From: Parachryseolinea silvisoli
Lineage (GTDB): Bacteria > Bacteroidota > Bacteroidia > Cytophagales > Cyclobacteriaceae
NCBI RefSeq assembly: GCF_021190955.1
Contig: NZ_JAIOAO010000004.1
Span: 310,001 to 374,000 of the forward strand
Direction: 5' to 3'
Length of the DNA stretch: 64,000 bases
Of this stretch, positions 25,802 through 48,807 are shown piece after piece; positions within the stretch are counted from its first letter, which is position 1; the number at the start of each line of letters is the position of its first letter. The notes beneath the pieces were generated by a model. The model made no database searches. It was not told the origin of the DNA and saw only the letters and a list, made by a program, of their open reading frames with translations. The translations under genes were made by a program, and so were the position numbers.

Positions 25802-25816
25802 GAATAAATCGTATTA
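25802..25816. promoter_or_regulatory. 15-bp element shared with the hydroxyproline operon (copy 1)
   Basis: GAATAAATCGTATTA, identical to 30665-30679, with an internal AATA-N5-TATT dyad. It ends 86 bp before the susC start. About 57 bp downstream is TACTTTCA (25859-25866), a weak match to the Bacteroidota -7 box TAnnTTTG. Copy 2 has the same spacing to its box, which points to a common activator site. Confidence 0.65.
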
Positions 25817-25902
25817 CGTCAGGATAATTTCTGGAAAAACGTGTGTCTGTGTTTTCTCTACTTTCAATGCATCATAATAGACCTAATTAAACCTAAGATT
25901 GC

Positions 25903-28902
25903 ATGAGAAAGTATTTTACCAAACGCTTGATGGCGGCGTTGGCGCTTTTAGCGTCGGCGTTGCTGTATCAGCAGGCCGCGGCACAGGTGACCGTTTCCGG
26001 AAAGGTAGTTTCCGAAGATAACGAGTCACTGCCGGGCGTGAGCGTGATGTTGAAAGGAACATCACTGGGAACGACGACAGATGCCGGTGGACGCTTTACT
26101 ATAGCGGTACCAGGATCCGAATCGGTGTTGATCCTCAGCTTTGTCGGCTATGTAAGCGAAGAAGTACCGGTGGGCAGTCAAACCAGCCTGGAGATCCGAT
26201 TGGTGCCCGACCTGCAGTCATTACAAGAGGTTGTCGTGATCGGTTATGGCACGCAGAAGAAAGAAAATGTTACCACCGCCATTGCCAGTGTCAAGGAAAA
26301 GGATTTCACCACGGGGGCTATGCGCGATGCATCCGAACTGATCAAAGGCAAGGTGGCGGGCCTCGTGATCGACAACGGATCCGGTGATCCGGGCTCGGGC
26401 CCCAACATCTCGCTGCGCGGTATCGCGACCATTAGCGGGTCGACCACGCCGCTGATCCTGATCAACGGCATCCCCGGCGATTTTAATACCGTGGCGCCGG
26501 CCGACATCGTTTCGATCGAAGTATTGAAAGATGCTTCCGCGGCGGCCATCTACGGCACACGGGGCGCCAACGGCGTAATTCTGATCACTACCCGTGGCGG
26601 CGACCGCGATCGCGCCCCCTCGGTAGTTTACAACCACTACTCGGCGGTTTCCAATATTTACCGCAAACCGGAATTCCTCAACGCGGGCGAATACCTCGAG
26701 CGCGCCAAAACCTTCGACTTCGTCAGTAACTACGTGGAAGAGGCCGAAGCCAATGGCGGCGTGGGCGACACCGACTGGCTGGACCTCATCACCCGCACAG
26801 CCTATACGCAGAATCATAACCTGTCGGTGCAGGGTGGCGGCGCGTCGTCTACCTACGCGCTGGCTGTTAACTATATTTCGCAGGAAGGGATCTTCCTCAA
26901 GTCGGACAACGACGAATTTCGCGTGTCGCTGGACCTGAACCAGTACCTGCTGGAAGACAAGGTCAAGATCAACGTCAACCTGCTGCGTGGGGTGCAGAAG
27001 CGTGGTGCGCTGGGCGATGGCAGCTCGTTCAACCCGCTCATTTACCGCAATGCCCTGATCCGCAACCCGCTATTGAAAGTGAAGGACGATGAAGGCAACT
27101 GGATCGACCCAGTCAAGTTCCAATACTACAACCCGCTGACCATGATCGAAGAAACGAACGGCGAGCTCAACAATTCCTGGACAAGGTTAACGTCCAACGT
27201 CACCGTGGAGCCACTGGCGGGCTGGAAGACAAATCTTATGGTGGCCCAGGAAATAAAGGATGGCTTCGCCGGGTATGCCGAAACTAAAAAGCACTATTCC
27301 ACTACACGCAATGGCCGCAATGGCTTTGCTTCGCGCAGCGACATCCACAGCAAAACCAACTACCTGGAGCTGACCTCGCAGTACGAGCGGCTGATGGGCG
27401 ACCACCACGTTACGGTATTGGGCGGTTACAGCTACCAGTACAATGTGAACGAGGGGGGCTGGGCCAACAACTACGACTTCCCGACAGACAAATATTCGTA
27501 TAACAACCTGGGCGCTGGCAATGCCATGCGCGACGGGCTGGCCCGGATGTCGAGCTATAAGGACGACAACACGCTGGTCGGTTTCTTTGCCCGGGCAGGG
27601 TATACGTTCCGCGACAAGTTCAACGTGCTGGCCAGTGTGCGGCGCGAAGGCTCGTCGAAGTTCGGCACCAACTATAAATGGGGTACATTCCCGTCGGCTT
27701 CGGCCAGCTGGTTGATCAACCGTGAGTCATTTATGGAGAATGTGTCGGGTCTTACCTTGCTTAAACTACGGGCAGGCTACGGCGTGACGGGCGTGATTCC
27801 AGCTGATTCGTATCGGTCCAAGACAGCGCTGGACTATTCGGGCAGCTTCTTCTATAACAACGGCAAGTGGGTACCGCCGCTGCAGAACAGCTGGAACCCC
27901 AATCCCAACCTGCGCTGGGAGAAGTCGCAGGAGGTGAACATCGGCGTGGACTTCGAGCTGTTCAACCGCCGGCTGACCGGTAGCGTAGATGGCTACTTCA
28001 AGACGACCAAAGACCTGTTGTTCGAGTACCGTGTGCCCACGCCGCCAAACCTGGCCGACCGCACGCTGGCCAATGTGGGTGAGATGGAAAACAAGGGTAT
28101 CGAAATCCTGCTGCGCGGTACGCCGGTGCGTACCAGCAACTTCGAGTGGAACTCGACGGTAACGATGTCGCACAACCGCAACGAGCTGCTGAGCTTGTCC
28201 AACGACCTGTATAAGATCGAGGGCGACTATATCAACACCGGCGACGCCGGCGACCCGATCTCGATGACTACACACCGTGTGAAAGTGGGACAACCGCTGG
28301 GTAATTTCTGGGGCCTGAAGTCGGTGGACATCAGCGAAGACGGCCTGTGGGTGATCGAGCTGCCCAACGGCGAGCGCCGCGTGATGGACGACAACGTACT
28401 GTCGCAGGATCCCAACCGCCAGATCCTGGGCAACGGCATTCCCAAATACCGCATGGGCTGGACCAACACCTTCCGCTACAAGAATTTTGATTTGAGCGTG
28501 GTGATGAACGGTGCCTTCGGCTTCCAGATCCTGAACTTCCAACGCATGTTCTATGAAAATCCCAACATCAACTACAACGTGCTGGAGTCAGCGTTCGATA
28601 ATGTATACGGCAAGCGGCTGCTGGGCTACACGCGTCAGGCGTATGTGAGCTATTATATCGAAGACGGCGATTACCTGAAGGTAGACAACGCTACGCTAGG
28701 GTATAACTTCAATGTATCGAACCTCAAGTTTATCCGGGGCGTGCGGTTGTATGTGTCAGGCTCGAACCTGGCAACCATTACCGGGTATAAGGGCGTGGAC
28801 CCGGAGATCCGGCGCGACGACCTGTTGTTCCAGGGCAACGACAACCGGGACAAGTTCCCGTCCATCCGGACCTATACCCTGGGGGTGAATGTAAACTTCT
28901 AA
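25903..28902 (+). CDS. SusC/RagA-family TonB-dependent outer-membrane transporter
   Basis: A 999-residue protein: signal peptide (ends near QQAAAQ), carboxypeptidase regulatory-like domain (about residues 28-105, VSGKVVSEDNESLPGVSVMLKG...), the conserved SusC segment VVIGYGTQKKENVT, a plug domain (about 115-235, ending IYGTRGANGVILITTRGG), and a 22-strand-type barrel to the C-terminal TLGVNVNF. SusC proteins import bulky ligands, oligosaccharides or peptides, with a SusD lid and TonB energy. The susD gene follows after 12 bp. The neighbouring hydroxyproline and arabinofuranosidase genes and the shared upstream element suggest import of arabinosylated hydroxyproline peptides or oligosaccharides (inference). 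No anti-sigma FecR/sigma pair is nearby. Confidence 0.96.
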   Translation: MRKYFTKRLMAALALLASALLYQQAAAQVTVSGKVVSEDNESLPGVSVMLKGTSLGTTTDAGGRFTIAVPGSESVLILSFVGYVSEEVPVGSQTSLEIRLVPDLQSLQEVVVIGYGTQKKENVTTAIASVKEKDFTTGAMRDASELIKGKVAGLVIDNGSGDPGSGPNISLRGIATISGSTTPLILINGIPGDFNTVAPADIVSIEVLKDASAAAIYGTRGANGVILITTRGGDRDRAPSVVYNHYSAVSNIYRKPEFLNAGEYLERAKTFDFVSNYVEEAEANGGVGDTDWLDLITRTAYTQNHNLSVQGGGASSTYALAVNYISQEGIFLKSDNDEFRVSLDLNQYLLEDKVKINVNLLRGVQKRGALGDGSSFNPLIYRNALIRNPLLKVKDDEGNWIDPVKFQYYNPLTMIEETNGELNNSWTRLTSNVTVEPLAGWKTNLMVAQEIKDGFAGYAETKKHYSTTRNGRNGFASRSDIHSKTNYLELTSQYERLMGDHHVTVLGGYSYQYNVNEGGWANNYDFPTDKYSYNNLGAGNAMRDGLARMSSYKDDNTLVGFFARAGYTFRDKFNVLASVRREGSSKFGTNYKWGTFPSASASWLINRESFMENVSGLTLLKLRAGYGVTGVIPADSYRSKTALDYSGSFFYNNGKWVPPLQNSWNPNPNLRWEKSQEVNIGVDFELFNRRLTGSVDGYFKTTKDLLFEYRVPTPPNLADRTLANVGEMENKGIEILLRGTPVRTSNFEWNSTVTMSHNRNELLSLSNDLYKIEGDYINTGDAGDPISMTTHRVKVGQPLGNFWGLKSVDISEDGLWVIELPNGERRVMDDNVLSQDPNRQILGNGIPKYRMGWTNTFRYKNFDLSVVMNGAFGFQILNFQRMFYENPNINYNVLESAFDNVYGKRLLGYTRQAYVSYYIEDGDYLKVDNATLGYNFNVSNLKFIRGVRLYVSGSNLATITGYKGVDPEIRRDDLLFQGNDNRDKFPSIRTYTLGVNVNF

Positions 28903-28914: not shown

Positions 28915-30528
28915 ATGAACATGCTAACGATAAAACGATTTTTTACAGGCCTGGCATTTACGACGGCGATGTTTTCCTGTACCGATCTGAACGAGAACCT
29001 GTACGACATCATCACAGCCGAAGAAACCGAGCTTACGGCAGACGACCTGAGCACGATTATCGCGCCGGCCTTTACCCGGTTCCAGACAGTATACTGGGGA
29101 TGGAACGGCCTCTTTGATGTATACGAAGAATCATCCGACCTCATCGTGACGCCGTTCCGCGTCGGCAACGGGTGGGGCGACCTGTACCTGGATCTGCACA
29201 AGCATTCGTGGGGTCCCTTTATCGAGCACGCCAACAACCTGTGGGTAAACGTTTACAACGGCATTACCTATACGAACAAAGCCATGCTCACCATCGAGGG
29301 CCTTGCGGACGTGGAAGGCAAAGACAAGGCCCTCGCGGAGCTGCGGGGGTTGCGGGCGATCTACTACTACATTTTGTTTGACAACTTCCGCGGTGTGCCG
29401 CTGGTGACGCGGTTCGATTTACCGCAGGGCTACCTGCCGGAGCATAATACGGGCAAGGAAGTGTACGACTTTGTTGAAAGCGAGCTGACGGAGGTCATGC
29501 CGTTGTTGAGTGAAGTGACCGATGGCACAACCTATGGCCGGGTAACGAAGTGGGCCGCCAAGATGACGTTGGCCAAGTTGTATTTGAACTCGGAGGTATA
29601 CTTCGGCACCCCTCGCTGGGACGATGCCAAAGCGCAGGTGCAGGATATCATTGAGAGCGGCGAGTTTTCCTTACAGGCAAATTATGCGGACAACTTCAAG
29701 GTAGCGAATGATGTGGCGTCTAACCTGGAGCAGATCTTCTCGATCCCCTTTGACGATATTAATGCGCCGGGATCTTATTATCCGTATAAGACGCTGCATG
29801 CGTTGAGTCAGCCGACGTACAACATGCGGGAATCGCCGTGGGGTGGAAGCTGTGGGATACCGCAGTTTATCGATACCTATGACGAAGACGACAGCCGGTT
29901 GGCCGAATGCTGGCTGGGTGGGCCGCAGTTTACGAGTGGCGGCGCGCCGATCATGGCGGGGGATGTGCAATTCGAGTATATCAACTACGTGACCAGTGCG
30001 GATGCAGCCGAGTTTAATGAAGGCTTCCGGTTTATCAAGTATCAGATTGCGGGGTTGGATGGTAAGGGCAACGATGTGCCGTTCTACCGGTATGCGGATG
30101 CATTGATGATCAAGGCGGAGTGTTTGTTGCGTACGGGCGGTGCCGACGAGGCGGCGGCGATCGTGACGGAGGTGCGGCAGCGGAACTTCCGCAGTGAGCC
30201 GGAGAAGGCGATCGTGACAGGGGCGGAATTGCTGGAAGGGAGCCGGTATAATTACGGGCCGTATGAGGCGGGTGTGATTACGGAGGAAGAAGGCGGCGAG
30301 GATATCGTCTATGGCCGGTTCCTGGACGAGCTGGCGTGGGAGTTTGTAGGAGAGCATCACCGGAAGCAGGACCTCATTCGCTTTAAGACGACGGAGGAGG
30401 ACAAATCCGTGTATATCGCCAAGTCGTGGTTGACGCACAAGCCGAGCGCGAAGTTTCGGGAAGTCTATCCTATACCCCAGCCGCAACGGGAGACGAATTC
30501 CAACCTGGGGCAGAATGACGGGTACTAA
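28915..30528 (+). CDS. SusD/RagB-family nutrient-binding lipoprotein
   Basis: A 537-residue lipoprotein with a signal peptide ending in the lipobox AMFSC (Cys22), then the SusD opening TDLNENLYDI. TPR-like helices include LRGLRAIYYYILFDNFRGVPLVT, the typical SusD signature, and the C-terminal region has LIRFKTTEEDKSVY and YPIPQPQRETN. It would form the surface lid on the SusC barrel. It is 12 bp after susC in the same operon, with a strong hairpin at 30550-30578 after its stop. Confidence 0.95.
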   Translation: MNMLTIKRFFTGLAFTTAMFSCTDLNENLYDIITAEETELTADDLSTIIAPAFTRFQTVYWGWNGLFDVYEESSDLIVTPFRVGNGWGDLYLDLHKHSWGPFIEHANNLWVNVYNGITYTNKAMLTIEGLADVEGKDKALAELRGLRAIYYYILFDNFRGVPLVTRFDLPQGYLPEHNTGKEVYDFVESELTEVMPLLSEVTDGTTYGRVTKWAAKMTLAKLYLNSEVYFGTPRWDDAKAQVQDIIESGEFSLQANYADNFKVANDVASNLEQIFSIPFDDINAPGSYYPYKTLHALSQPTYNMRESPWGGSCGIPQFIDTYDEDDSRLAECWLGGPQFTSGGAPIMAGDVQFEYINYVTSADAAEFNEGFRFIKYQIAGLDGKGNDVPFYRYADALMIKAECLLRTGGADEAAAIVTEVRQRNFRSEPEKAIVTGAELLEGSRYNYGPYEAGVITEEEGGEDIVYGRFLDELAWEFVGEHHRKQDLIRFKTTEEDKSVYIAKSWLTHKPSAKFREVYPIPQPQRETNSNLGQNDGY

Positions 30529-30722: not shown

Positions 30723-30730
30723 TATTTTTG
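30723..30730 (+). promoter_or_regulatory. Bacteroidota -7 box of the hydroxyproline operon
   Basis: TATTTTTG matches the TAnnTTTG consensus exactly, 27 bp before ATG 30758. No TTTG or TTG is found at the usual -33 distance, suggesting dependence on an activator. Confidence 0.5.
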
Positions 30731-30757
30731 TCTATAGGTATTTTAACCATATTCATC

Positions 30758-31696
30758 ATGATCACATGGAAAGGAGTGTTTCCTGCGGTAACGACGAAGT
30801 TTACGGCAGATGACAAACTGGATTTTAAGGCGTTTGAGAAAAACGTAGAGGCGCAATTGAAGGCCGGTGTGCACGGCATCATCATTGGCGGAACGTTGGG
30901 GGAGTCCAGTGTGCTGTCGCCGGCAGAAAAGCAGGAGCTGTTGAAGTTCACGGTGCAGACCGTGGGGGGACGGGTGCCCGTTGTCCTCAACATCGCAGAA
31001 GGCGCGACACGCGACGCCGTACAGATTGCCGAGAGCGCGCAGAAGAACGGCCTGGACGGCCTCATGCTGTTGCCACCCATGCGGTATAAATCCGATCACC
31101 GTGAGACAGTCACATACTTTAAGACCATTGCCAAAGCCACCGACCTGCAGATCATGATCTATAACAATCCCGTCGACTACAAAGTAGACGTGACGCTGGA
31201 TATGTTCGAAGACCTGACCGAAAGCAAAAATATCGACGCCGTAAAGGAATCGACGCGTGACGTAGTGAATATCACGCGCATGGTGAATCGCTTTGGCGAC
31301 CGCTTCAGCATCATGAGTGGTGTGGATACACTGGCGATGGAGAGCCTGGTCGTGGGCGCTAAGGGCTGGGTAGCCGGGCTGGTGTGTGCCTTTCCCGAAG
31401 AGACTGTCGCCATTTATAACCTGGTGAAGGAAGGCCGTATCCAGGAGGCCGTGGAAATCAACCGCTGGTTTATGCCGCTGTTGGAGCTGGATACGTTTGC
31501 CAAACTGGTGCAATATATCAAGCTGGCCGAAGCCGAAGTGGGCCTGGGCACGGAAACGGTACGGGCGCCGCGACTGGTATTGGCAGGAGAGGAGCGCACC
31601 GAGGTATTAACGATCATCCGCGATGCGCTGAAGAAACGACCCGTGCTGCCACGCAGCAATGGCCAGTCCGTTAAGCCTACCGCGCTTACAACATGA
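30758..31696 (+). CDS. DapA-superfamily lyase, probable 1-pyrroline-4-hydroxy-2-carboxylate deaminase
   Basis: A 312-residue class I aldolase-like barrel of the dihydrodipicolinate synthase family. The motif GGTLGES (44-50), Tyr135 in IYNNPVDY and Schiff-base Lys163 in AVKESTR give the family catalytic set. The start at 30758 (MITWKGVFPA) is the normal family N-terminus; an upstream TTG frame is not needed. Context defines the reaction: next to 2-oxoglutarate-semialdehyde dehydrogenase, hydroxyproline epimerase and a D-amino-acid oxidase-like gene, it should convert 1-pyrroline-4-hydroxy-2-carboxylate to 2-oxoglutarate semialdehyde with loss of ammonia. It overlaps the dehydrogenase gene by 4 bp. 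A true DapA for lysine synthesis is less likely. Confidence 0.88.
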   Translation: MITWKGVFPAVTTKFTADDKLDFKAFEKNVEAQLKAGVHGIIIGGTLGESSVLSPAEKQELLKFTVQTVGGRVPVVLNIAEGATRDAVQIAESAQKNGLDGLMLLPPMRYKSDHRETVTYFKTIAKATDLQIMIYNNPVDYKVDVTLDMFEDLTESKNIDAVKESTRDVVNITRMVNRFGDRFSIMSGVDTLAMESLVVGAKGWVAGLVCAFPEETVAIYNLVKEGRIQEAVEINRWFMPLLELDTFAKLVQYIKLAEAEVGLGTETVRAPRLVLAGEERTEVLTIIRDALKKRPVLPRSNGQSVKPTALTT

Positions 31697-33177
31697 TGGG
31701 CCAGCAACAGCTCGACAACGTTGTGCAGCAGGCTGCGCAGGCGTTTGACGTGTACCGCGCCGTGAGTGGTGCGCGCAAGGCGGCATTCCTGGAGGCGATT
31801 GCCGCCGGTATTGAAGCGATCACCGACGAGTTGGTGCCCCTGGCACAAGCAGAGACACACTTGCCCGAGGCACGTCTGCGCGGCGAGATCGGACGCACGA
31901 CGGGGCAGCTACGCGCGTTTGCCGCATTGGTGGCTGAAGGACATTGGGTACAGGCAACCATCGATACCGCGCGGCCGGAGCGCAAGCCTGTGGCGAAGCC
32001 CGACCTGCGCAAAATGTTGGTGCCCCTTGGGCCGGTGGTAGTCTTTGGCGCGAGCAATTTTCCCTTTGCCTTTTCCACGGCGGGGGGCGACACAGCGTCG
32101 GCCCTGGCAGCGGGATGTTCCGTGATCGTAAAGAGTCACCCGGCGCATCCGAATACGTCGGCACGGGTGGCGGCGGTGATCACCACAGTGGCCCGTGCGA
32201 CCGGTATGCCGGCCGATGTATTCCAACACATCGAAGACTCCAGCATCGAGGTGGGGCAACAACTCGTAAAACACCCGCTGACGCAAGCCGTGGCCTTTAC
32301 TGGCTCACAGCAAGGCGGTATGGCGTTATATCATCTCGCCGCGCAACGGCCCGACCCGATCCCGGTGTTTGCCGAAATGGGCAGTGTCAATCCCGTCGTC
32401 GTATTGCCCGGGATAGTACAGACTAACACGGCGTTGCCTGCTATAGTGGCCGCATCCATTGTACAGGGCGTCGGACAGTTTTGTACCAACCCCGGGTTAC
32501 TGTTTATTCTACGTGGCGATGGGTTGGGTGGTTTTCTGACGGCGCTGGGCGATGCCATTCACAACAGTGCGCCGGGCACGATGCTCCACACCGGCATTGC
32601 CAAAAACTATAGTATAAAAAAAGCGAACGCCACGGCGCAGGCCGGCGTCTCAGTCCTCGGGACCGCGATGGATGCACACGGCGACACCCAGGGCGTGCCG
32701 ACGGTGGCACGTGTACATGCGCGTGATTTTATTCATAATCCGGCGCTGCACGAAGAAGTTTTCGGACCTTTCTCCCTCGTGGTCACCTGTGATAGTATAG
32801 ACGAGCTGCGGGAAGCGCTGGCAGCATTGCCGGGACAGCTCACCACGTCGCTGTTTGGAACAACCGCAGAGTTGGAACAACAGGCAGGCCTGGTGGCGGC
32901 GTTACAAAAACGGTGTGGACGAATGATCTTTAACGGTGTGCCCACCGGCGTAGAGGTGTGCAAAGCCATGCAGCATGGCGGGCCGTTTCCGGCTACTACC
33001 GATGCGCGGTTTACATCCGTCGGCACGGATGCACTCTATCGGTTTGTGCGGCCGTTCAGTTATCAGGATGCGCCGGAAGCCTTGTTGCCGCCGGAGCTGC
33101 GCAACGACAACCCGCAGCAGATTCTTCGATGTATAGACAATAAATGGACTACTGAACAGGTCCTGGCATTAACCTGA
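31693..33177 (+). CDS. 2-oxoglutarate semialdehyde (2,5-dioxovalerate) dehydrogenase
   Basis: A 494-residue aldehyde dehydrogenase of the 2,5-dioxovalerate dehydrogenase branch. The N-terminal helix region includes LPEARLRGEIGRTTGQLR, a hallmark of this branch. Asn122 (FGASNFPFAFS), Glu228 (FAEMGSVNPV) and the nucleophile Cys264 (GQFCTNPG) form the active site. It oxidises 2-oxoglutarate semialdehyde to 2-oxoglutarate with NAD(P)+, the final step of hydroxyproline (or L-arabinose/uronate) degradation. The ATG overlaps the previous stop (ATGA), so the two are translationally coupled. Because non-phosphorylated L-arabinose catabolism ends with the same step, this enzyme could in principle serve both, but no arabinose dehydrogenase or dehydratase is present here. 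Confidence 0.92.
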   Translation: MMGQQQLDNVVQQAAQAFDVYRAVSGARKAAFLEAIAAGIEAITDELVPLAQAETHLPEARLRGEIGRTTGQLRAFAALVAEGHWVQATIDTARPERKPVAKPDLRKMLVPLGPVVVFGASNFPFAFSTAGGDTASALAAGCSVIVKSHPAHPNTSARVAAVITTVARATGMPADVFQHIEDSSIEVGQQLVKHPLTQAVAFTGSQQGGMALYHLAAQRPDPIPVFAEMGSVNPVVVLPGIVQTNTALPAIVAASIVQGVGQFCTNPGLLFILRGDGLGGFLTALGDAIHNSAPGTMLHTGIAKNYSIKKANATAQAGVSVLGTAMDAHGDTQGVPTVARVHARDFIHNPALHEEVFGPFSLVVTCDSIDELREALAALPGQLTTSLFGTTAELEQQAGLVAALQKRCGRMIFNGVPTGVEVCKAMQHGGPFPATTDARFTSVGTDALYRFVRPFSYQDAPEALLPPELRNDNPQQILRCIDNKWTTEQVLALT

Positions 33178-33199: not shown

Positions 33200-34204
33200 A
33201 TGAAGAAGACATTTTTTTGTATCGATGCCCATACCTGCGGCAACCCGGTGCGGTTGGTGGCCGGTGGCGGCCCGGCCCTGGAAGGGAAAAACATGAGTGA
33301 GAAGCGGCAGCACTTCCTGCGCGAATACGACTGGATACGCAAAGGATTGATGTTCGAGCCACGCGGTCACGACATGATGAGCGGCAGTATACTGTACCCG
33401 CCGTGTGATCCGCAGAACGATGTGGCCGTGCTGTTCATTGAGACCAGTGGCTGTTTGCCGATGTGCGGACACGGTACCATCGGCACGGTAACGATCGCCA
33501 TCGAAGAGGGACTTGTTGTACCCAAACAGCCGGGTGTATTGAATGTCGAGGTGCCTGCCGGGCTGATCCGTATTGAATATACCCAGCGCGAAAGCGACAA
33601 CAAAGTAACGTCGGTCAAGATCCGGAACATCAAATCTTTCCTGGCGGCCGAGAATCTCACGGCCGAATGCCCGGACCTCGGCGAGCTGCGGCTCGACGTA
33701 TCATACGGTGGAAACTTCTACGCCATCGTCGACGTGCAGGAGAACTTCCCGGGCCTGGAACATTTCCGCGCCGAGCAGCTCATCGGCTGGAGCCGCGAGC
33801 TGCGCAAGAACATCAACGCGAAGTATACCTTCGTCCATCCCGAGAATCCCACCATCAACGGCTGTAGCCACATCCTGTGGGCGGGGCTGGTGATCGACCC
33901 TGCGTCCACGGCACGCAATGCCGTGTTTTACGGCGACAAGGCCATCGACCGCTCGCCGTGTGGCACCGGCACCTCGGCACGCCTGGCACAGTGGTATGCC
34001 AAAGGAAAATTGAAAGCGGGCGAGCCCTTTATCCATGAAAGCATCATCGGGTCGAAGTTTATCGGCCGGGTGGAAGAGGGCACCACGCTGGATGGCAAGC
34101 CTGCCATTGTGCCCAGCATCGAAGGATGGGCCGTGGTGACCGGGTATAATACCATCATCATGGACGACAACGATCCCTATAAACACGGCTTCCAGGTAAT
34201 CTAA
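33200..34204 (+). CDS. 4-hydroxyproline 2-epimerase
   Basis: A 334-residue proline racemase-family protein. Both catalytic cysteines are present, Cys89 in LPMCGHGTIG and Cys254 in SPCGTGTSA. That fits a two-base racemase or epimerase and argues against trans-3-hydroxyproline dehydratase, which replaces the first Cys. The opening FCIDAHTCGNPVRLV is normal for the family. It converts trans-4-hydroxy-L-proline to cis-4-hydroxy-D-proline, the first step of the pathway. It is placed between the aldehyde dehydrogenase (22 bp) and the FAD oxidoreductase (17 bp). Proline racemase remains formally possible but does not suit the operon. Confidence 0.92.
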   Translation: MKKTFFCIDAHTCGNPVRLVAGGGPALEGKNMSEKRQHFLREYDWIRKGLMFEPRGHDMMSGSILYPPCDPQNDVAVLFIETSGCLPMCGHGTIGTVTIAIEEGLVVPKQPGVLNVEVPAGLIRIEYTQRESDNKVTSVKIRNIKSFLAAENLTAECPDLGELRLDVSYGGNFYAIVDVQENFPGLEHFRAEQLIGWSRELRKNINAKYTFVHPENPTINGCSHILWAGLVIDPASTARNAVFYGDKAIDRSPCGTGTSARLAQWYAKGKLKAGEPFIHESIIGSKFIGRVEEGTTLDGKPAIVPSIEGWAVVTGYNTIIMDDNDPYKHGFQVI

Positions 34205-35526: not shown

Positions 35527-35580
35527 AAAATCCTACCGGCAGTTGATAATATCGACCAAAATCGGTGTCGGGATTCGGGG

Positions 35581-35588
35581 TAAGTTTG
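35581..35588 (+). promoter_or_regulatory. Candidate -7 box for the GH127 gene
   Basis: TAAGTTTG fits TAnnTTTG exactly, 21 bp before ATG 35610. No -33 TTTG is found at normal spacing, so it would be a weak or activated promoter. Confidence 0.4.
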
Positions 35589-35609
35589 GAATACCATCGA
35601 ACAGAACCT

Positions 35610-38024: not shown

Positions 38025-38059
38025 TCTTTTTGTTTATCTATATCCATTACCCAAAACCT

Positions 38060-40475: not shown

Positions 40476-41363
40476 TTACCGTAACACGACGTCCATTTTA
40501 TTCTCCTGTAGCTTCCGGAATTCCGTGGGGGTGATCGAACACACCGAACGGAATTTCCGGTTGAAGTTTGAGAGATTGTTAAATCCCACCTCCATCGATA
40601 TTTGCGAAATGCTCAGGTCGTTTTGCTGCAGCAGCTTGCGCGCATGGCCAATGCGGATCTCCGTCAGGAAATCGACATACGACTTGCGCGTGCGTTTTTT
40701 AAAGTAGCGGCAAAACGAGTTGGTCGTCATGTGCGCCAGGTAAGCTACTTCATCCAGCGAGATTTTGCGGTGGAACTCGTTCATCGTAAAGCGGTAGATG
40801 TCGGCCAGCTTGCGGCCGTCCTGCTCATCAAAGTCACTGTATACGCCGGAGGAGGCCAGCGGCTCCAGGCTTTTGTTCGACGACAGGATGCTAAGGATTT
40901 TCAGCAGCACGATGATGCGGTCCATGCCCGTCTTTTTGAACAGGTGTTTGATGAGCTGCGCCACGCGGCTTTTGATAGGTTCCTGAATGAGCAGGCCGCG
41001 CTCACTGCTTTTGGCGAGCTCGTTCAGGTGCGCCATCTCCGGCATGGAAAGAAACGTTTCGCCGAAGGTCTTCCACTCGAAGAAGAGCGAGAGCGAGTGC
41101 GCTTGCCCCTCCCGTTGGTGTTCATAATATTTCCGGTCGTTGCGGAAAACGTGGGGCAGGTTCGGGCCGATCAGGAATATATCACCGGGTTTGAAGGCTC
41201 CGATAAAGTCGCCGACGATTACTTTACCGTCGCTTTCAAGGATCAGCGTAAGTTGTATTTCCGGATGCTGGTGGAGGTTGTCGTAAAAATGAACCTCATG
41301 GTCTTCCTGCAGCCGAAAAGATTCCTGCGATGTCTTCGGAATTTTAAAGGGTAGAATCTTCAT
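40476..41363 (-). CDS. AraC-family transcriptional regulator
   Basis: A 295-residue regulator with a cupin-like sensor (HLHQHPEIQLTLI, KPGDIFLIGPNLPHVFRND) and a C-terminal double helix-turn-helix (ISLDEVAYLAHMTTNSFCRYFKKRT, LSISQISMEVGFNNLSNFNRKFR). Cupin AraC proteins in Bacteroidota often respond to sugars. It is convergent with the GH146-like gene (13-bp gap) and divergent from GH51, with a clear dyad between them. It is the only transcription factor inside the arabinose/hydroxyproline region and so the first candidate for binding the 15-bp element, though that is untested. Confidence 0.93.
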   Translation of the reverse strand: MKILPFKIPKTSQESFRLQEDHEVHFYDNLHQHPEIQLTLILESDGKVIVGDFIGAFKPGDIFLIGPNLPHVFRNDRKYYEHQREGQAHSLSLFFEWKTFGETFLSMPEMAHLNELAKSSERGLLIQEPIKSRVAQLIKHLFKKTGMDRIIVLLKILSILSSNKSLEPLASSGVYSDFDEQDGRKLADIYRFTMNEFHRKISLDEVAYLAHMTTNSFCRYFKKRTRKSYVDFLTEIRIGHARKLLQQNDLSISQISMEVGFNNLSNFNRKFRSVCSITPTEFRKLQENKMDVVLR

Positions 41364-41405
41364 AAGGGTGGTATGATTACAATAATAAATATAATAAATT
41401 TATTA

Positions 41406-41428
41406 TTAATTGTGAAGTTTACAATTAA
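41406..41428. promoter_or_regulatory. 8-bp dyad in the AraC-GH51 divergent region
   Basis: TTAATTGT (41406-41413) and ACAATTAA (41421-41428) are perfect inverted copies across 7 bp, in a very AT-rich stretch 43 bp upstream of the AraC start and about 170 bp upstream of GH51. It is a candidate autoregulatory operator. Confidence 0.5.
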
Positions 41429-41597
41429 CGAAATTGCAACGCACTCAATTTTGCTTATGCATAATACTACTTTATTCACATTATTCGATTGTTTGCGCAA
41501 ACGCAAAACGTCGGATTTTTCAGGTAAAATTGTATCGATGGGCGGCAATATCCATGAAACGCTTTCTGGAGCGATGGACATAATTTCGAGCCTACAG

Positions 41598-44135
41598 ATG
41601 AAGCGTTTTTGTTTAAGTATAGTTGTTTGTGTGAGTGTGCACCTTGCGATGGCGCAGACTGCCCGAATCTCGATATCCGGTGCGACAACGGGTGCGACGG
41701 TATCCCGTGATTTGCACGGTATCTTTTTCGAAGAGATCAGCCACGGCGGTGAGGGCGGGTTGTATGGCGAGCTGATTCAAAACCGCGGCTTTGAGGAAAG
41801 TAAAATACCCGAGGGCTGTACGCTGGATTCGGGTTTCCTGGTCCCTCCGCGCACGCCGCATTATAGCGCAGACCAGGTCGTAGACTGGAAGATGCCGTTT
41901 GAAGCGAAGAACGATTATCCCGGCTGGTCGCTGGCAACCAGCGGTGGCGCCATCGCGCACCTGGCAGTAGACCTTTCGCAACCGTTATACCCCGAGACGC
42001 CGCGTTCGTTGAAAATTACTATAGCATCGATGCCGCGAACCGCGAACGTTGCCGTGATAAACGAAGGGTTCTGGGGAATCTCCGTGCAACAGGGTGCTGC
42101 CTATACCCTGACCTTCTATAGCCGCGCGGAAAAGTACAACGGTGGCATGACGGCACGCCTGGTGAGTGCTGACGGCAAAACATTGGCCGAGCATGTTTTC
42201 GAACGTGTGCAGGGACGTGGCTGGAAAAAATACACGGCCACGCTACGCGCACAGGCGAGCGATGCACAGGCTACATTTCAAGTAGTATTGTCCCGGCCGG
42301 GCACCGTGTGGCTGGATTTTGTTTCGTTGTTTCCGTTAGAGACGTTTCGTAACCGGCCCAACGGCCTGCGGCCGGATCTGGCGCAATACCTGGCCGATCT
42401 GAAGCCGGCGTTTGTGCGATGGCCCGGTGGATGTTTTGTGGAGGGCATCAGTCCCCAGAGCGCGCCGAACTGGAAAAAATCACTCGGCCCCGTCGAACGG
42501 CGCCCCGGCACATACAGTCCGTGGGGCTATTGGTCCAGCGATGGACTGGGCTACCACGAGTTCCTGCAATTCTGTGAAGACATCGGTGCCGACGCGCTGT
42601 ATGTATTTAATTGCGGCGTGTCGTGCGAAATGCGCAGCGGTGTATATGTGGAAGACGCGCACGTCGACACCCTCGTGGCCAGCGTTCTCGAGGCGATCGA
42701 ATATGCCATTGGCCCGCAGGAGTCCCGTTGGGGCAAGGTCCGGGCGCAGCAAGGCCATCCGGAACCGTTTCCCTTGCGGTACGTGGAGGTAGGCAATGAG
42801 CAAGTGGGCGAGCGGTATGCAAAACGGTTTAACATCTTTTATAAAGCCATTAAAGAAAAGTACCCGCAACTCGAAATATTGGCGGCGATGGGCATAGCCC
42901 ACCTCAGCCAACCCACGATCCGCACGGTCGAGAAGATGGACATCGCCGACGAGCATGCGTACAAAGCCGCGGGGTGGGCCATGGCGTATGCGGACTGGTA
43001 CGACAAATATCCGCGAAAGGACTGGAAGCTCTATGTCGGCGAGTACGCCTGCAACGCCGGTGTCGGCGCGGGCAACATGGCCGCAGCTCTGAATGACGCC
43101 ACGTTCATCCTGGGCATGGAACGAAACTCCGACCTGGTGACGATGAGCAGCTATGCGCCATTGCTGGAGAATATACACGACACCGACTGGCCGGTAAACC
43201 TGATCCGGTTTGATGCCGGCCGAAGCTTTGCCCGCATATCCTACTATGCCATCAAAATGCTAAATGAGCACAAAGCCTCGGTAAACCTGGCAACGCAGGT
43301 AGCGGTGCCGGTAGACACAGTCACGGCGGCGTTTACCGGCAAGATCGGGCTCAGTACGTGGGACACGCAAACCGAGTATAAGGATGTGGAAGTGATACAA
43401 GACGGCAAGGTAGTATACCAGTCCGGCGTGATCCGGAAGGAGGATTGGCATCTGACCGGCGGACAGTGGGAGGTACGCGACAGTGTCCTCGCCCAAACGA
43501 AGGAAGGTGCCTGGCCGCTGGCATTGCTGAATACGAAATCATTCGACAGGTATACCTTAAAGTTGAAGGCTCGTAAGACGGGTGGCCATAATGCGTTCAT
43601 GATACCTTTTGCGTTCCGCGACGATCAGCAATACATGCGCGTGCACCTGGGCGCCTGGCTCAACAAGGTGGCAGCCTTTGAGACCGTCACAAAAGGCGCC
43701 GATGCGATCGTATCGCAGCCCGTGCGATTGGAAAAGCCCGTGGAGCTGAACCGGTGGTACGCCATCGAGCTGCGTGTCAATGCCACCACGGTGGAGTGTT
43801 ACCTGGACGGCAAACGGTTGATGACCTATCACACCCCGGCCGACCTGTTTGCAATTGCCGGCCGCGACGACAAGACGGGGGAGTTGGTGATCAAAATAGT
43901 GAATGCCGTCGGGCATGCCCGACCGGTGTCGATCGCGGTAAACGATCTCGCCCTGGAGCCGACGGGTACCGCCGTGGTGCTGGCGGCAGAGTCGCCGGAC
44001 GACGAGAACTCATTCGAGTCGCCGCAGCGGTTCGTGCCACAGACGGAGTCCGTGCACAGCATCGCAAAACATTTTGAGTATGTAGTGAAACCCTGGTCCG
44101 TGACGGTGTTGCGGGCCCGGATCAAACGACCCTGA
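41598..44135 (+). CDS. GH51 alpha-L-arabinofuranosidase
   Basis: An 845-residue exported GH51 enzyme. The start at 41598 gives a proper signal peptide (MKRFCLSIVVCVSVHLAMAQ); the upstream open frame to 41373 is AT-rich promoter DNA. After a carbohydrate-binding-like N-terminal part (about 20-260), the catalytic barrel has acid/base Glu401 in EVGNEQ and nucleophile Glu482 in VGEYAC. A LamG-like insert (about 625-770, DWHLTGGQWEVRD...) precedes the closing beta domain (LRARIKRP). GH51 removes terminal alpha-L-arabinofuranose. Extensin side chains end in an alpha-1,3-linked arabinofuranose, so it would complement the two beta enzymes, although arabinan or arabinoxylan are alternative targets. 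A terminator follows at 44194. Confidence 0.94.
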   Translation: MKRFCLSIVVCVSVHLAMAQTARISISGATTGATVSRDLHGIFFEEISHGGEGGLYGELIQNRGFEESKIPEGCTLDSGFLVPPRTPHYSADQVVDWKMPFEAKNDYPGWSLATSGGAIAHLAVDLSQPLYPETPRSLKITIASMPRTANVAVINEGFWGISVQQGAAYTLTFYSRAEKYNGGMTARLVSADGKTLAEHVFERVQGRGWKKYTATLRAQASDAQATFQVVLSRPGTVWLDFVSLFPLETFRNRPNGLRPDLAQYLADLKPAFVRWPGGCFVEGISPQSAPNWKKSLGPVERRPGTYSPWGYWSSDGLGYHEFLQFCEDIGADALYVFNCGVSCEMRSGVYVEDAHVDTLVASVLEAIEYAIGPQESRWGKVRAQQGHPEPFPLRYVEVGNEQVGERYAKRFNIFYKAIKEKYPQLEILAAMGIAHLSQPTIRTVEKMDIADEHAYKAAGWAMAYADWYDKYPRKDWKLYVGEYACNAGVGAGNMAAALNDATFILGMERNSDLVTMSSYAPLLENIHDTDWPVNLIRFDAGRSFARISYYAIKMLNEHKASVNLATQVAVPVDTVTAAFTGKIGLSTWDTQTEYKDVEVIQDGKVVYQSGVIRKEDWHLTGGQWEVRDSVLAQTKEGAWPLALLNTKSFDRYTLKLKARKTGGHNAFMIPFAFRDDQQYMRVHLGAWLNKVAAFETVTKGADAIVSQPVRLEKPVELNRWYAIELRVNATTVECYLDGKRLMTYHTPADLFAIAGRDDKTGELVIKIVNAVGHARPVSIAVNDLALEPTGTAVVLAAESPDDENSFESPQRFVPQTESVHSIAKHFEYVVKPWSVTVLRARIKRP

Positions 44136-44303: not shown

Positions 44304-45974
44304 ATGCTCTCTTCGTCTTACACCGTCCGGATCGCCTGCGCGATCTTCCTGATGCTCACCTTTGTTCCGGGTTGCCTGCAAGCACAGGCGCCTGTGTTTA
44401 CCCACGACGATACCCTGCGTGGCACCATCACCCGTGAGCGTGCGTGGTGGGACTTGTTGTATTATCATCTCGATATTAACGTCGATCCGGCGAAGAAGCA
44501 GTTGTCGGGCAAAGTGACGGTGCAATACAAAGTACTGGAGCCCTATACCGTATTACAGATCGATCTGCAACAGCCCCTGGTAATCACCCAGGTGTTGATG
44601 GGCAAAAAGAAGCTTACGTTCACGCGCGACGGCAGCAATGCCTATAAGATTACGCTGCCGCAGGCTCCCGCCAGGGATGCCATCCAATCATTGGATGTGT
44701 ATTACAACGGCAGCCCGGTAGTAGCCAAGAACCCACCGTGGCAGGGTGGCATTCAATGGGTCAAGGCCACCGACGGTTCGCCGTTTATTGCAACCTCGTG
44801 CCAGGGCCTCGGGGCCAGCGTGTGGTGGCCGTGCAAAGATCATATGTATGACGAGCCCGACAGTATGCTCATGAGCATCACCGTGCCGGAAGACCTGATG
44901 GATGTTTCCAACGGCCGGCTGCGCAGTGTAGTCGAAAACAAAAAGGCTAAGACAAAAACCTATAACTGGTTTGTCGGCAATCCTATCAACAACTACGGTG
45001 TAAACCTCAACATTGCTAAATACGCGCACTTTGCCGACACACTGCACGGCGAAGCGGGTACCCTTGATCTGAATTTCTATGTGCTGCCCGAGAATTTGGA
45101 GAAGGCCAAAGTACAGTTCAAACAAGCCAAGCTGATGCTAAAAGCCTTTGAGTATTGGTTCGGTCCGTACCCGTTCTACAAGGACGGCTACAAATTGGTA
45201 GAAGCGCCCTACCTGGGCATGGAACATCAAAGCTCGGTCACGTACGGCAATGGCTATGGCAATGGTTATCGCGGGCGCGACCTGTCGGGCACGGGATACG
45301 GTTTGAAATGGGACTTTATCATCATCCACGAATCCGGGCATGAGTGGTATGCCAACAACATTACCTATCGGGATATAGCCGACATGTGGATTCACGAATC
45401 CTTCACGAACTACTCGGAAGGTTTGTACACCGAGTATTACTTTGGCAAGGAAGCGGCCACGGACTATGTGGTCGGCACGCGGCGGGGCATTCAGAACAAT
45501 ACGCCGATCATTGGCGTTTACAATGTCAACAAAAGCGGCTCTGGTGACATGTATCCCAAGGGGGGCAACATGCTGCACACCCTCCGGCACAGCATTGGCA
45601 ATGATGTGTTATTCCGCGATATCCTGCGGGGTATGAACAAAACCTTCTATCACCAAACGGTGCGCACGGAACAGATCGAAGGGTATATCTCAAAACGAGC
45701 CGGACGCGACTACTCAAAAGTATTTGATCAATACCTGCGGTCGGTAAAAGTTCCCCAATTCGAATACTATTACGCGGGTAATAAACTATTCTACCGTTGG
45801 TCCAACATCGTGTCCGGCTTTGACTTGCCCCTCCGTCTGTCGGATGGTGCGGGGGCTATTGTATTATATCCAACGGCCCAGTGGCAATCACAAGAGCCGA
45901 TTATCGACAAGCCGATCGATGCCAAATACCTCGAGCGCATGTACTATATCACCGTGCGCGATACCGCTCAATAA
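44304..45974 (+). CDS. M1-family metallopeptidase (aminopeptidase)
   Basis: A 556-residue M1 zinc aminopeptidase with signal peptide ending GCLQAQ. The zinc site is His342-Glu343-x-x-His346 (HESGHEW) with third ligand Glu365 in WIHESFTNYSEG, the M1 spacing HEXXH-x18-E. The usual N-terminal beta domain starts YYHLDINVDPAKKQLSGKV. At this length it lacks the large C-terminal helical domain of PepN-type enzymes. It would act in the periplasm on exported or imported peptides. It is transcribed alone between two hairpins. Next to the hydroxyproline and arabinosidase genes it may release amino acids from deglycosylated glycoprotein peptides, but M1 enzymes are common, so this link is tentative. Confidence 0.93.
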   Translation: MLSSSYTVRIACAIFLMLTFVPGCLQAQAPVFTHDDTLRGTITRERAWWDLLYYHLDINVDPAKKQLSGKVTVQYKVLEPYTVLQIDLQQPLVITQVLMGKKKLTFTRDGSNAYKITLPQAPARDAIQSLDVYYNGSPVVAKNPPWQGGIQWVKATDGSPFIATSCQGLGASVWWPCKDHMYDEPDSMLMSITVPEDLMDVSNGRLRSVVENKKAKTKTYNWFVGNPINNYGVNLNIAKYAHFADTLHGEAGTLDLNFYVLPENLEKAKVQFKQAKLMLKAFEYWFGPYPFYKDGYKLVEAPYLGMEHQSSVTYGNGYGNGYRGRDLSGTGYGLKWDFIIIHESGHEWYANNITYRDIADMWIHESFTNYSEGLYTEYYFGKEAATDYVVGTRRGIQNNTPIIGVYNVNKSGSGDMYPKGGNMLHTLRHSIGNDVLFRDILRGMNKTFYHQTVRTEQIEGYISKRAGRDYSKVFDQYLRSVKVPQFEYYYAGNKLFYRWSNIVSGFDLPLRLSDGAGAIVLYPTAQWQSQEPIIDKPIDAKYLERMYYITVRDTAQ

Positions 45975-46007
45975 CCGGCTAATATCCTATTATCATCAGC
46001 TAAGATC

Positions 46008-46031
46008 AGCGAAGCAGGCCCCTGCTTCGCT
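46008..46031. terminator. 11-bp hairpin after the M1 peptidase gene
   Basis: AGCGAAGCAGG (46008-46018) and CCTGCTTCGCT (46021-46031) pair perfectly with only a 2-nt centre. No T-run follows. Likely an mRNA end structure or an intergenic palindrome. Confidence 0.5.
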
Positions 46032-46212
46032 ATGTAATTTCATTTGTGCTTTGTGATGTAGTGTGTGTGCTATGTATAGCATCGCAAGAGTACGATCATG
46101 TCGCTGATGGCGTTGGATGAATCATCGTTGGAACGCGCATGACAGATATTCCCATGTATAGTTGGTGATAGTTCTATATAGAGTTCTTTTTCAACCTTAA
46201 AAACAGTTCGTT

Positions 46213-48807
46213 ATGAGAAAATCTACTTCGCTGAAGTTAGTAGTATGGCTGCTGGTGTGTTGCGCGTGGGCGCAGCAGGCGGTGGCGCAGACCAACGTGG
46301 CCTTAACGGCCACATCGTCCACGTCGTATGTGTCGTCCTGGGAAACCCTGGCGGCCGTAAACGACGGTTTTACCCCGGCGAATTCGAATGACAAATCGCA
46401 CGGCGCGTACGGCAACTGGAACAACCCAAACTCCACACAATGGGTACAATACGACTGGACCACAACATACCAGGTCACTTCGATCGAAGTATACTGGTTC
46501 GACGATGGCGGCGGTGTGCGCGTACCGACGACGGCCAACGTCGAATATTGGAACGGCGCCACATGGGTGACCCTCGCGCCCATTCCAAAGGTGATCAATA
46601 CCTTTAACGTGGCGTCATTCTCCTCGGTGGCACTGAGCCGCATGCGCGTGTCGATGCTGAACACCACCCAATCCACGGGCATCCTGGAATGGCGTGTGCT
46701 CGGTACGCCCGTGACCAACTGTCCCGGCACCACCATCGTGCCCCAAACACAAATCAACGGCGGCAGCTGGACGCAGACCGCATCCGCTACGATCGCCGCG
46801 GGTGGCTCCGTGCGTTTTGGCCCGACACCCTCTTCCGGCGGGGCCTGGAGCTGGACGGGTCCGAATGGCTTTACCGCGACTACGCGCGAGATTCTGATCA
46901 GCAATGTACAAGGCGCGCAGGCAGGCACGTACGTGGCACTGTATACCAACAGTTGTGGTACACAGACCACGCAAAACTTCACCATTACGCTGAGCGGCAG
47001 CGGCACCGGCAATCCCTATAGCTGGCCTGCGTACTCGCCCACCATTGCCTACAACTTCCGCGATGAGTTCCCCGCACTGAGTACACCGACACAAGTATTG
47101 AACGATTGTCCGCAGGTGGTGTCAACGCAGTCCTCCAACTGGTGGTGCTTCCGCAAAGGGCCCACGGCCAACGCGCTCGTGACGAGCGCCGCCGTGACAC
47201 CCATGCTGGCACGGATGAACACGGACTTCGCGTATTTCCGTGACGAGATGGGCTGGCCGCCCGACCTGCGTGCTAAGAACGGGTATCGCAGCGCGGTATA
47301 CCTGTATGGTTCGGGGTTGTGCACCGATAATGCGTCCAATACTGAGCTGGGCGGCTGGCAGAGTGCGATTAGCTACAACGGCGTAAGCTGGCCCATGGTG
47401 CTGGCCTCTTATTATCCCATCTACAGCTTCGACCCGGCCAGTACATACGGCGACCGGCTGGCGCAGCAGGGCGCTATGGTGCACGAAGGTATACACGCAC
47501 TGTTGGCCGACCTGCCCGGTGTTAAACAATCGGCATGGTTCCACGAAGGTGGCAACGTATGGCTGCAACAGACGGCCGATGCCCGACGCACCAACAACTT
47601 CGGCAGCATGGGCGACCTGAACGGCACAGACTTCATCGCTCCATTTATGCCCATCGAATGTTATTCCGGCTGGCTGCAAGACGGCAGCTTTGGCGGACCA
47701 TCGGCCGAAGGGGTAAACATGTTCAACGGCAACCAGCAGATCTGCACCTGGCGCACCTACCTCGGTGGTCACCAGTATAGCAGCTCGTTCCCGACCTTCC
47801 TGGGCAACACCCTGGGCGATGCCTCCGTGCCGTGGATCTGGCGCAACGCCCCTAACCGCGTGCTGGCCGGCATCGCATCGGGCATCGGCGCCGCGCAGAT
47901 GCGCCGGTTGATTACGGAGTATCGTGCCAAGCAAGCGCTGATCGACTTCGGTCCGTGGAACAACGCCATCCTGGCACTGATGAACGCACACTTTGGTCAG
48001 GCTATACAAGCTGAGTGGCAGCCCTCGTGGCTGAACCCGGCGGTGTGGAATGCTACACCCTATGTGCAGACCACGAACAACAGCGGTGTGCTGACCCCGG
48101 AAGCCCGCACGCTGCCAGGGTGGTCAGGCGCCAACCAGATACCGCTGCTCGTGACAGGCAATATGGTGACGGTAAACTTTCAACCCATCGGTGCGAATAT
48201 GACATGTCAGTTAGTATACCGCTCTACCACCGGCGTGCCGGTCTATAGCGATTTTGTATCGAGTGGCAATGTAAGCCTACGGCTGGATTTGCCTCCGGCG
48301 AACAATGTAGTCATCGCCGTGATTACGAACACCGACTATATATACAATGGCGAGAGCACGCGCACAGCGCATTATGACTATCGGTTGCAGTTGGTGACTG
48401 GGGTTACGGGTACTGCGAGCGTTACAACCAAGTGGTTCACATCGGTATCACTGGCCGGCGCACGTACGGCAGGAGCCGAGGTCGGGATTGATATGTCGAA
48501 GTATTGTACGCACTCGTATCAGCATACACAGGAAGTGGCCGAGGTGCAGAAGATTATTAACCCCAATACTTTTCAAATGTATCCGAATCCCGTGGCAGAG
48601 AGCAGCCATGTAACGTTGGAGTTTGCAAATGCGGAAGGGGAGGAGACCGCCATTGCTATTTTGACAACGCAGGGGAGGAAGGTGTTTGAGACCGTAACGA
48701 CGGATAAGCACTACGTGGTCGAATCGAAGAACTTGCGGAAGGGATCTTATATCGTGAAGATTTCCAATAGTAAGACCAGTACGACGCAGACGTTGATTGT
48801 GCAGTAG
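46213..48807 (+). CDS. T9SS-secreted putative metallopeptidase with discoidin-like domain
   Basis: An 864-residue secreted protein. Order: signal peptide (to VAQTN near residue 27), F5/8 type C-like domain (about 27-165, QWVQYDW, VYWFDD, GILEWRV), an Ig-like domain (about 170-260), a central domain with His424-Glu425-Gly-Ile-His428 (HEGIHALL) and a second HEGGNVW at 444, and a C-terminal type A T9SS sorting domain (YPNPVAESS ... TQTLIVQ). HEXXH followed 15 residues later by HEGG suggests a gluzincin-like zinc peptidase, but I cannot name the family. The discoidin-like module resembles the C-terminus of the GH127 enzyme in this locus. Expected at the cell surface or secreted. Peptide cleavage of a glycoprotein substrate is inference. 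Confidence 0.82.
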   Translation: MRKSTSLKLVVWLLVCCAWAQQAVAQTNVALTATSSTSYVSSWETLAAVNDGFTPANSNDKSHGAYGNWNNPNSTQWVQYDWTTTYQVTSIEVYWFDDGGGVRVPTTANVEYWNGATWVTLAPIPKVINTFNVASFSSVALSRMRVSMLNTTQSTGILEWRVLGTPVTNCPGTTIVPQTQINGGSWTQTASATIAAGGSVRFGPTPSSGGAWSWTGPNGFTATTREILISNVQGAQAGTYVALYTNSCGTQTTQNFTITLSGSGTGNPYSWPAYSPTIAYNFRDEFPALSTPTQVLNDCPQVVSTQSSNWWCFRKGPTANALVTSAAVTPMLARMNTDFAYFRDEMGWPPDLRAKNGYRSAVYLYGSGLCTDNASNTELGGWQSAISYNGVSWPMVLASYYPIYSFDPASTYGDRLAQQGAMVHEGIHALLADLPGVKQSAWFHEGGNVWLQQTADARRTNNFGSMGDLNGTDFIAPFMPIECYSGWLQDGSFGGPSAEGVNMFNGNQQICTWRTYLGGHQYSSSFPTFLGNTLGDASVPWIWRNAPNRVLAGIASGIGAAQMRRLITEYRAKQALIDFGPWNNAILALMNAHFGQAIQAEWQPSWLNPAVWNATPYVQTTNNSGVLTPEARTLPGWSGANQIPLLVTGNMVTVNFQPIGANMTCQLVYRSTTGVPVYSDFVSSGNVSLRLDLPPANNVVIAVITNTDYIYNGESTRTAHYDYRLQLVTGVTGTASVTTKWFTSVSLAGARTAGAEVGIDMSKYCTHSYQHTQEVAEVQKIINPNTFQMYPNPVAESSHVTLEFANAEGEETAIAILTTQGRKVFETVTTDKHYVVESKNLRKGSYIVKISNSKTSTTQTLIVQ

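Follow-up and report, generated by a model that had tools for sequence, protein, structure and literature searches.

The region at 25.9-48.8 kb of a 64,000-nucleotide stretch of the Parachryseolinea silvisoli genome (contig NZ_JAIOAO010000004.1, positions 310,001 to 374,000; here called the window) is probably a variant of a polysaccharide utilization locus (PUL) that is directed at arabinosylated hydroxyproline (Hyp) glycopeptides. The locus contained genes for a SusC/SusD pair, 4 enzymes of the type that degrade Hyp, GH127 and GH146 beta-L-arabinofuranosidase-like enzymes, an AraC-family regulator, a GH51 alpha-L-arabinofuranosidase-like enzyme, an M1 peptidase and a HEXXH protein with a type IX secretion system (T9SS) tail. 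Each of these 12 genes, which an earlier note on this DNA had named, was located by Pfam and NCBIfam searches in the place given there, and all of them were on the + strand except the gene for the regulator. The gene content, the catalytic-type residues and the recurrent linkage in other genomes are described below, and it is from these that we infer the substrate. Coordinates refer to positions within the window, unless they are preceded by a label for a locus (L) or for a contig of the same genome (C8, C9); other genomes are labelled G.

The epimerase was the firmest assignment within the locus, as far as can be judged from sequence. The predicted 4-hydroxyproline 2-epimerase, HypE (33200..34204; Pfam Pro_racemase, 428 bits), scored 592 bits against an NCBIfam cut-off of 376 bits for 4-hydroxyproline epimerase (NF010578) and carried both of the cysteine motifs, MCGHG and SPCGTGT, that presumably hold the catalytic cysteines. 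The other 3 enzymes were a DapA-family lyase, probably a 1-pyrroline-4-hydroxy-2-carboxylate deaminase (30728..31696; Pfam DHDPS, 211 bits), an aldehyde dehydrogenase (ALDH), probably acting on alpha-ketoglutaric semialdehyde (31693..33177; Pfam Aldedh), and an FAD-dependent D-amino-acid dehydrogenase, probably a D-hydroxyproline dehydrogenase (34222..35469; Pfam DAO, 253 bits). None of these 3 proteins scored above the cut-off of a listed NCBIfam family, and they were placed at the family level. These placements are strengthened by the recurrence of relatives across 135 stretches with a Hyp epimerase gene from the same order, in which DapA was found in 125, DAO in 121, ALDH in 96 and AraC in 87. 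The stretches were drawn from 390 genomes of the order, 157 of which contained a Pro_racemase match over the cut-off; 150 places were used and 135 stretches were examined, mostly of about 20 kb and some of them ended by contig ends. Relatives of the AraC-family regulator (40476..41363, - strand; Pfam HTH_18) adjoined the DapA gene in many Hyp loci.

The SusC-type TonB-dependent transporter (25903..28902; Pfam Plug, TonB barrel and CarbopepD_reg_2) and the SusD protein (28915..30528; Pfam SusD_RagB and SusD-like_3) were encoded by adjacent genes which, together with the carbohydrate-active enzymes and the regulator, gave the locus the composition of a PUL in the Pfam searches. The two DUF1680 proteins were told apart by their best solved matches, which were 6EX6, 4QJY, 5MQO and 3WKW for the first and 5OPJ for the second. 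We take 3WKW to be HypBA1, 6EX6 to be BT3674, 5MQO to be BT1003 and 5OPJ to be BT0349. The first protein, the GH127-like enzyme (35565..38024; DUF1680 catalytic domain, 371 bits, with a C-terminal F5/8-like module), contained the residues E356, C358, C424 and C425, which by HypBA1 numbering we take to be the zinc ligands and which were invariant in all 40 rows of the alignment. A zinc-binding Cys3-Glu set is stated for this type of enzyme in PMC10850190. The second protein, the GH146-like enzyme (37841..40462, with a probable start at 38060; DUF1680, 397 bits), contained the motifs ETC and TCC and scored 505 bits against 5OPJ, 215 bits against 8K7X and about 60 bits or less against the GH127 structures. 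The GH51-like enzyme (41373..44135, the true start probably being downstream; Pfam ASD1 and Alpha-L-AF_C) had MgGH51 as its best solved match (6zps, 260 bits). On visual inspection, the first-ATG starts looked too early for the GH127, GH146 and GH51 proteins, signal peptides were recognized in all 3 of these proteins but in none of the Hyp enzymes, and the SusD and M1 proteins looked like lipoproteins. The 3 types of glycosidases fit the bonds of Ara1-4-Hyp, namely those of the alpha-arabinofuranose (alpha-Araf) cap, of beta-1,2-Araf and between Araf and Hyp. An assignment of the GH127-like protein as an aceric acid hydrolase was rejected, with a score of 489 bits against the NF049879 cut-off of 950 and 5MQO as only the third solved match.

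If the pairing of the two groups of genes matters, the closest homologues of the PUL genes should be located near HypE more often than others. Within 25 kb of HypE we found 10 of the 20 closest GH127 genes (0.16 expected for uniform and independent placement in genomes of 6.5 Mb or 6.7 Mb, as for all expectations given here) and 6 of 88 weaker ones (0.68 expected). The corresponding values for GH146 were 7 of 14 (0.10 expected) and none of 53 (0.41 expected), and those for SusD were 18 of 39 (0.30 expected) and none of 47 (0.37 expected). The linkage of proline-racemase-family genes to GH127 and GH146 genes, for which the earlier note had suggested a survey, was thus recovered in relatives. 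These counts refer to the matches listed; scoring covered the top two or three candidates of each genome, and the weaker groups are not the full set of paralogues; 1 of 21 GH127, 3 of 17 GH146 and 4 of 43 SusD genes of the top groups were excluded, their genomes having no listed HypE. Among 150 listed DUF1680 places, 15 of 89 were near HypE compared with 0.71 expected. Neighbouring places were found for the closest GH127 and GH146 genes in 10 of 12 cases, and a SusD gene of the closest group was near them in 5 of 11 and 5 of 9 cases, respectively. Linkage to HypE spanned 7 genus codes for GH127, with two tandem places in one genome, and 5 for GH146, while 12 of the 18 Hyp-linked SusD cases came from a single genus code.

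The P. silvisoli genome (13 contigs totalling 7,945,725 bases, with a completeness of 98.3%) contained a single Pro_racemase match and 4 DUF1680 proteins over the Pfam cut-off, and because 2 of these 4 adjoin the single match and further genera and families show the same linkage, the pairing of HypE with DUF1680 exceeds what is expected by chance. Recurrence was also seen in a first set of 80 loci, the best of at least 584 confirmed loci with HypE relatives, a set that is biased toward close relatives and includes several short contigs. Nearly all titles in this set were from Bacteroidota; 17 of the loci contained a DUF1680 gene, 18 a GH127, GH146 or GH51 gene, and 28 a gene for an M1, M24, DPPIV or DUF885 protein. 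A peptidase-type gene was found in 65 of the 135 stretches from the order. Genera represented in the first set included Chitinophaga, Mucilaginibacter, Pedobacter, Rufibacter, Flavihumibacter, Sinomicrobium and Galbibacter. The gene order of the locus was repeated in L101, from another family, where an AraC gene on the - strand preceded DapA, ALDH, HypE, DAO, GH127 (57% identity) and GH146 (61%), and a 368-residue M1 relative (59%) came next. The order was the same except for the position of the AraC gene, and there was no GH51 gene in the stretch examined.

Several observations weigh against this reading. The GH127-like enzyme was nearer to 6EX6 (753 bits) than to 3WKW (329 bits); it is thus not most closely related to enzymes of the HypBA1 type, and the bond assigned to it is therefore only putative. 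With these scores, the emphasis that the earlier note had placed on extensins over other Hyp arabinosides or arabinogalactan proteins (AGPs) was not favoured. The nearness to 6EX6 would also suit an AGP target, in which case the substrate of GH127 would be terminal beta-Araf residues on type II arabinogalactan and the backbone would be used by means of the Hyp genes, AGPs being likewise rich in Hyp. BT3674 is described in PMC10850190 as acting with exo-galactanases on larch arabinogalactan. However, no galactanase-type family was identified among the locus genes scanned with Pfam, and the combination of GH146, GH127 and GH51 fits the bonds of Ara1-4-Hyp, which makes an AGP target improbable in our view. 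Another point against arabinosylated Hyp glycopeptides is that a search of this genome with PF16499 (GH27 type) gave no match. A GH27-type enzyme would suit the alpha-galactose on the serine of extensins. It was noted that genes for GH27-type alpha-galactosidases (L079:4107-6482 and relatives) were present in 8 of the 80 Hyp loci of the first set, 6 of which also contained GH127, and that 5 of the 8 were titled Mucilaginibacter, a cluster of which one representative was scanned.

The other points on the same side concern how tightly the genes are joined. A DUF1680 gene was located within about 10 kb in only 7 of the 135 Hyp loci of the order, and most Hyp operons are therefore without a nearby DUF1680 gene. 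A DNA search of 6 genomes of the genus with a query of 19,901 bases showed G391 to be collinear at 83% to 84% identity, apart from an additional stretch of about 2.2 kb that separates DAO from GH127. In G395, a region of about 23 kb contained DapA to DAO, GH127, AraC and GH51 together with the HEXXH gene and a fragment resembling SusD; no DNA match to GH146 was listed for this genome, and its M1 match was on another contig. The distance from the Hyp block to the GH127-GH146-AraC block on the same contig was 21 kb in G393, 30 kb in G394 and 37 kb in G392, and no glycosidase or peptidase was recognized by eye in translations of 15 kb between the blocks in G393. The Hyp block and the glycosidase block of G390 were on two contigs. 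Since the spacing varies among these genomes, the association is one of neighbourhood and not always of a single operon. Moreover, 9 of 35 weaker GH127 genes and 5 of 21 weaker GH146 genes had a SusD gene of the closest group nearby, so the tie between this SusD group and the glycosidases extends beyond their closest homologues. The linkage test itself compared related genomes with an expectation of independent placement, and the boundaries between its top and weaker groups were drawn at gaps in the scores once the lists had been viewed.

The scarcity of DUF1680 genes near Hyp operons and the separated blocks in 3 of the 6 genus-mates would be accounted for if two independent modules were neighbours, that is, a general operon for Hyp peptides, including those of collagen, and a PUL for arabinan or pectin side chains. 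Relatives of SusD with 45% to 58% identity were indeed located beside Hyp genes without a DUF1680 match in the stretch (L181, L190, L191, L198, L204 and L205), and the GH146 and GH51 enzymes would suit arabinan too, the best match of the former, 5OPJ, being one that we read as compatible with arabinan. We nevertheless regard this explanation as unlikely, although by no means far-fetched, since the closest GH127 and GH146 genes were near HypE across several genera, weaker GH146 genes never were, and the gene order is repeated in another family. Repeated changes in linkage on the GH127 tree also argue against it. The tree included 40 sequences, 20 of which were Hyp-linked, and although limited by near-copies, long branches and contig breaks it required 9 changes in linkage (8 being unavoidable given the well-supported branches), compared with 13.7 changes for shuffled labels, and 5 of 500 shuffles gave values as low as 9. 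The pairing has therefore been gained or lost repeatedly. A PUL for arabinosylated Hyp glycopeptides thus remains the reading we prefer. The idea in the earlier note of one system for glycan and aglycone is supported in part: relatives keep the linkage, and the homologues nearest to the genes of the locus show it best, whereas the distance of 21-37 kb between the two blocks in half of the genus-mates does not support it.

The same genome provided candidates for two functions that the earlier note had predicted to be encoded elsewhere, arabinose kinase and isomerase on the one hand and an inner-membrane Hyp transporter on the other. The genes araB-araD-araA and a Nudix/AraR-type regulator, followed by a second GH51 gene, were identified at C8:291606-298038 (L089:1606-8038), and the araA match at C8:294090, the only one in the genome, was about 42 kb upstream of the SusC gene on the same contig. 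A single neighbourhood held both sets of genes in a Chitinophaga metagenome-assembled genome (L023), where AraC, DapA, ALDH, a permease, GH51, HypE, DAO, DUF885 and an M61 peptidase were followed by araR, araB, araD and araA. Relatives of araR, araB and araD were found beside HypE in L025, also from Chitinophaga, and no ara genes were found across the 135 Hyp stretches of the order. An amino-acid permease gene was Hyp-linked in 27 of these stretches and in 10 of the 80 other loci, and its orthologue in P. silvisoli was located on another contig at C9:143982, with 65% identity compared with 33% for the next best protein; this APC permease would carry Hyp. The arabinose genes also bear on the explanation that the ALDH, and perhaps DapA, is merely shared between the Hyp route and a non-phosphorylative arabinose route, with no glycopeptide needed. 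The two routes share the alpha-ketoglutaric semialdehyde step and end in a common last reaction. However, the genome contains araB-araD-araA, the epimerase is a 4-hydroxyproline epimerase according to NCBIfam, and no arabinonate-dehydratase-type family was found among the scanned locus genes, all of which makes this explanation highly improbable.

Peptide processing is represented in the locus by the M1 peptidase (44304..45974; Pfam Peptidase_M1), which contained the aminopeptidase zinc motif HEXXH-18-E and had relatives in 25 of the 135 Hyp loci of the order and in 9 of the 80 loci of the first set. The secreted T9SS-tailed protein (46213..48807; Pfam F5_F8 type C and Por_Secre_tail) carried its HEXXH motif at residue 424 and matched no Pfam peptidase family. 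Its N-terminal F5/8-like module was related to the C-terminal module of the GH127-like enzyme (35% identity over 146 residues), a similarity that hints at a common target. Of 39 genomes searched for the HEXXH region (residues about 250-700), 3 contained it, all from this genus and including two of the 6 genus-mates, and its membership in the system is therefore uncertain. Searches of Pfam, PDB, plasmids and open reading frames (ORFs) of the Hyp loci gave no relative from beyond the genus, with no credible PDB match and no phmmer match among the Hyp-locus ORFs. The region is possibly a new metallopeptidase family. A single-sequence AlphaFold model of it had a mean pLDDT of 32.5 and was discarded. 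An assignment of the protein to DUF6055 was rejected, as there was no Pfam match and BLASTP with the DUF6055 protein of L077 aligned the T9SS tails alone. Three other Hyp loci contained DUF6055 HEXXH relatives instead, in L077 (with a T9SS tail), L062 and L072. Among the most common partners in Hyp operons was a DUF885 protein (L048:12243-14123 and relatives), present in 22 of the 80 and 42 of the 135 loci, which is possibly a peptidase for Hyp peptides. It was also noted that Pedobacter Hyp loci contained a DUF5695 protein (L061:370-3150, with relatives in L046, L052 and L053).

In the mechanism that we propose, peptides from the hydroxyproline-rich glycoproteins (HRGPs) of plants or green algae would be cleaved extracellularly and imported by SusCD. 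In the periplasm, the alpha-Araf cap would be removed by GH51, the beta-1,2-linked Araf by GH127 and the Hyp-bound Araf by GH146, while the M1 peptidase would trim the imported peptides. Free Hyp would enter the cytoplasm through the APC permease encoded elsewhere and would be epimerized, oxidized, deaminated and converted to 2-oxoglutarate by HypE, DAO, DapA and ALDH, whereas arabinose would be degraded by the products of the araA, araB and araD genes located 42 kb upstream. The AraC-family regulator probably senses Hyp or an Ara-Hyp compound. The order of the steps, the localization, the role of the transporter, the regulation and the co-expression are all predictions of this model. We give an even chance to the broader proposal that the locus represents a recurrent class of PULs in Bacteroidota that would lead from plant cell-wall glycoproteins to central metabolism, using both sides of the glycosidic bond, with a SusCD lineage dedicated to Ara-Hyp and the two halves joined repeatedly.

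Elsewhere in the window, a 693-residue protein without a Pfam match at an E value of 0.1 was encoded at 48952-51033, a DnaE-type DNA polymerase III alpha subunit at 7321-10722, perhaps forming a mutagenesis cassette together with the preceding ORF, and potassium transport genes of the kdp type, with a KdpD sensor domain and a P-type ATPase, at 14358-21064. Scans for promoters and terminators gave 17 and 22 sites compared with 14.8 and 20.0 in shuffled sequences, and were set aside.

Extensins and related glycoproteins are cross-linked within plant walls, and to our knowledge little is known about their use by bacteria as sources of carbon and nitrogen. The usual view of PULs is that they serve to release sugars. 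If our reading is correct, a locus that also degrades a glycosylated amino acid widens this view, provides a genome marker for the use of Hyp glycoproteins, and offers concrete enzymes and a SusCD lineage for Ara-Hyp. The locus would represent a PUL joined to the catabolism of the amino acid that carries the glycan, and such a PUL variant would be new. In the portion of the full-text literature searched, with subscription papers outside its scope, none of the titles or abstract openings listed linked Hyp catabolism to a PUL.

The PULs of Bacteroides that contain BT3674 (GH127) and BT0349 (GH146) resemble the locus in their enzyme types, but we know of no amino-acid catabolism in them. The in silico proposal for Latescibacteria (WS3) includes a GH127 enzyme that would release arabinose from extensin Hyp as well as the use of AGPs and peptides and the transport of amino acids in the same cells, yet as a genome-wide inventory, and neither genes for Hyp catabolism nor a joint locus were described in the sections consulted (PMC4454575). 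The XeHypBA1, XeHypBA2 and XeHypAA genes of Xanthomonas euvesicatoria serve to degrade HRGP arabinosides and adjoin a gene for a prolyl oligopeptidase, which was reported to be broken, and the text of that paper contains neither words beginning with catabol- or assimilat- nor the term TonB (PMC6085000). The HypBA1, HypBA2, HypAA and Bll4HypBA1 enzymes of Bifidobacterium longum, described in the available sections of PMC10850190 and PMC7263609, likewise include GH127 and GH146 members for Hyp-linked beta-L-arabino-oligosaccharides, and Bll4HypBA1, a GH146 enzyme, is stated in the former to act on the Araf-linked Hyp of HRGP. That system relies on an ABC importer and uses arabinose as a carbon source, according to the same sections, which do not mention a use of Hyp, whereas the locus described here has SusCD, GH51 and Hyp catabolic genes and, unlike the B. 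longum system, no GH43 or GH121 among the genes scanned. The proline racemase superfamily has been studied by genome neighbourhood, and the terms arabin, TonB and collagen are absent from the text of that study (PMC4113996). Finally, the bacterial operons for trans-4-hydroxyproline consist of HypE, D-Hyp dehydrogenase, the deaminase and alpha-ketoglutaric semialdehyde dehydrogenase, the same 4 enzyme families as in the window, where they are joined to SusCD and arabinofuranosidases.

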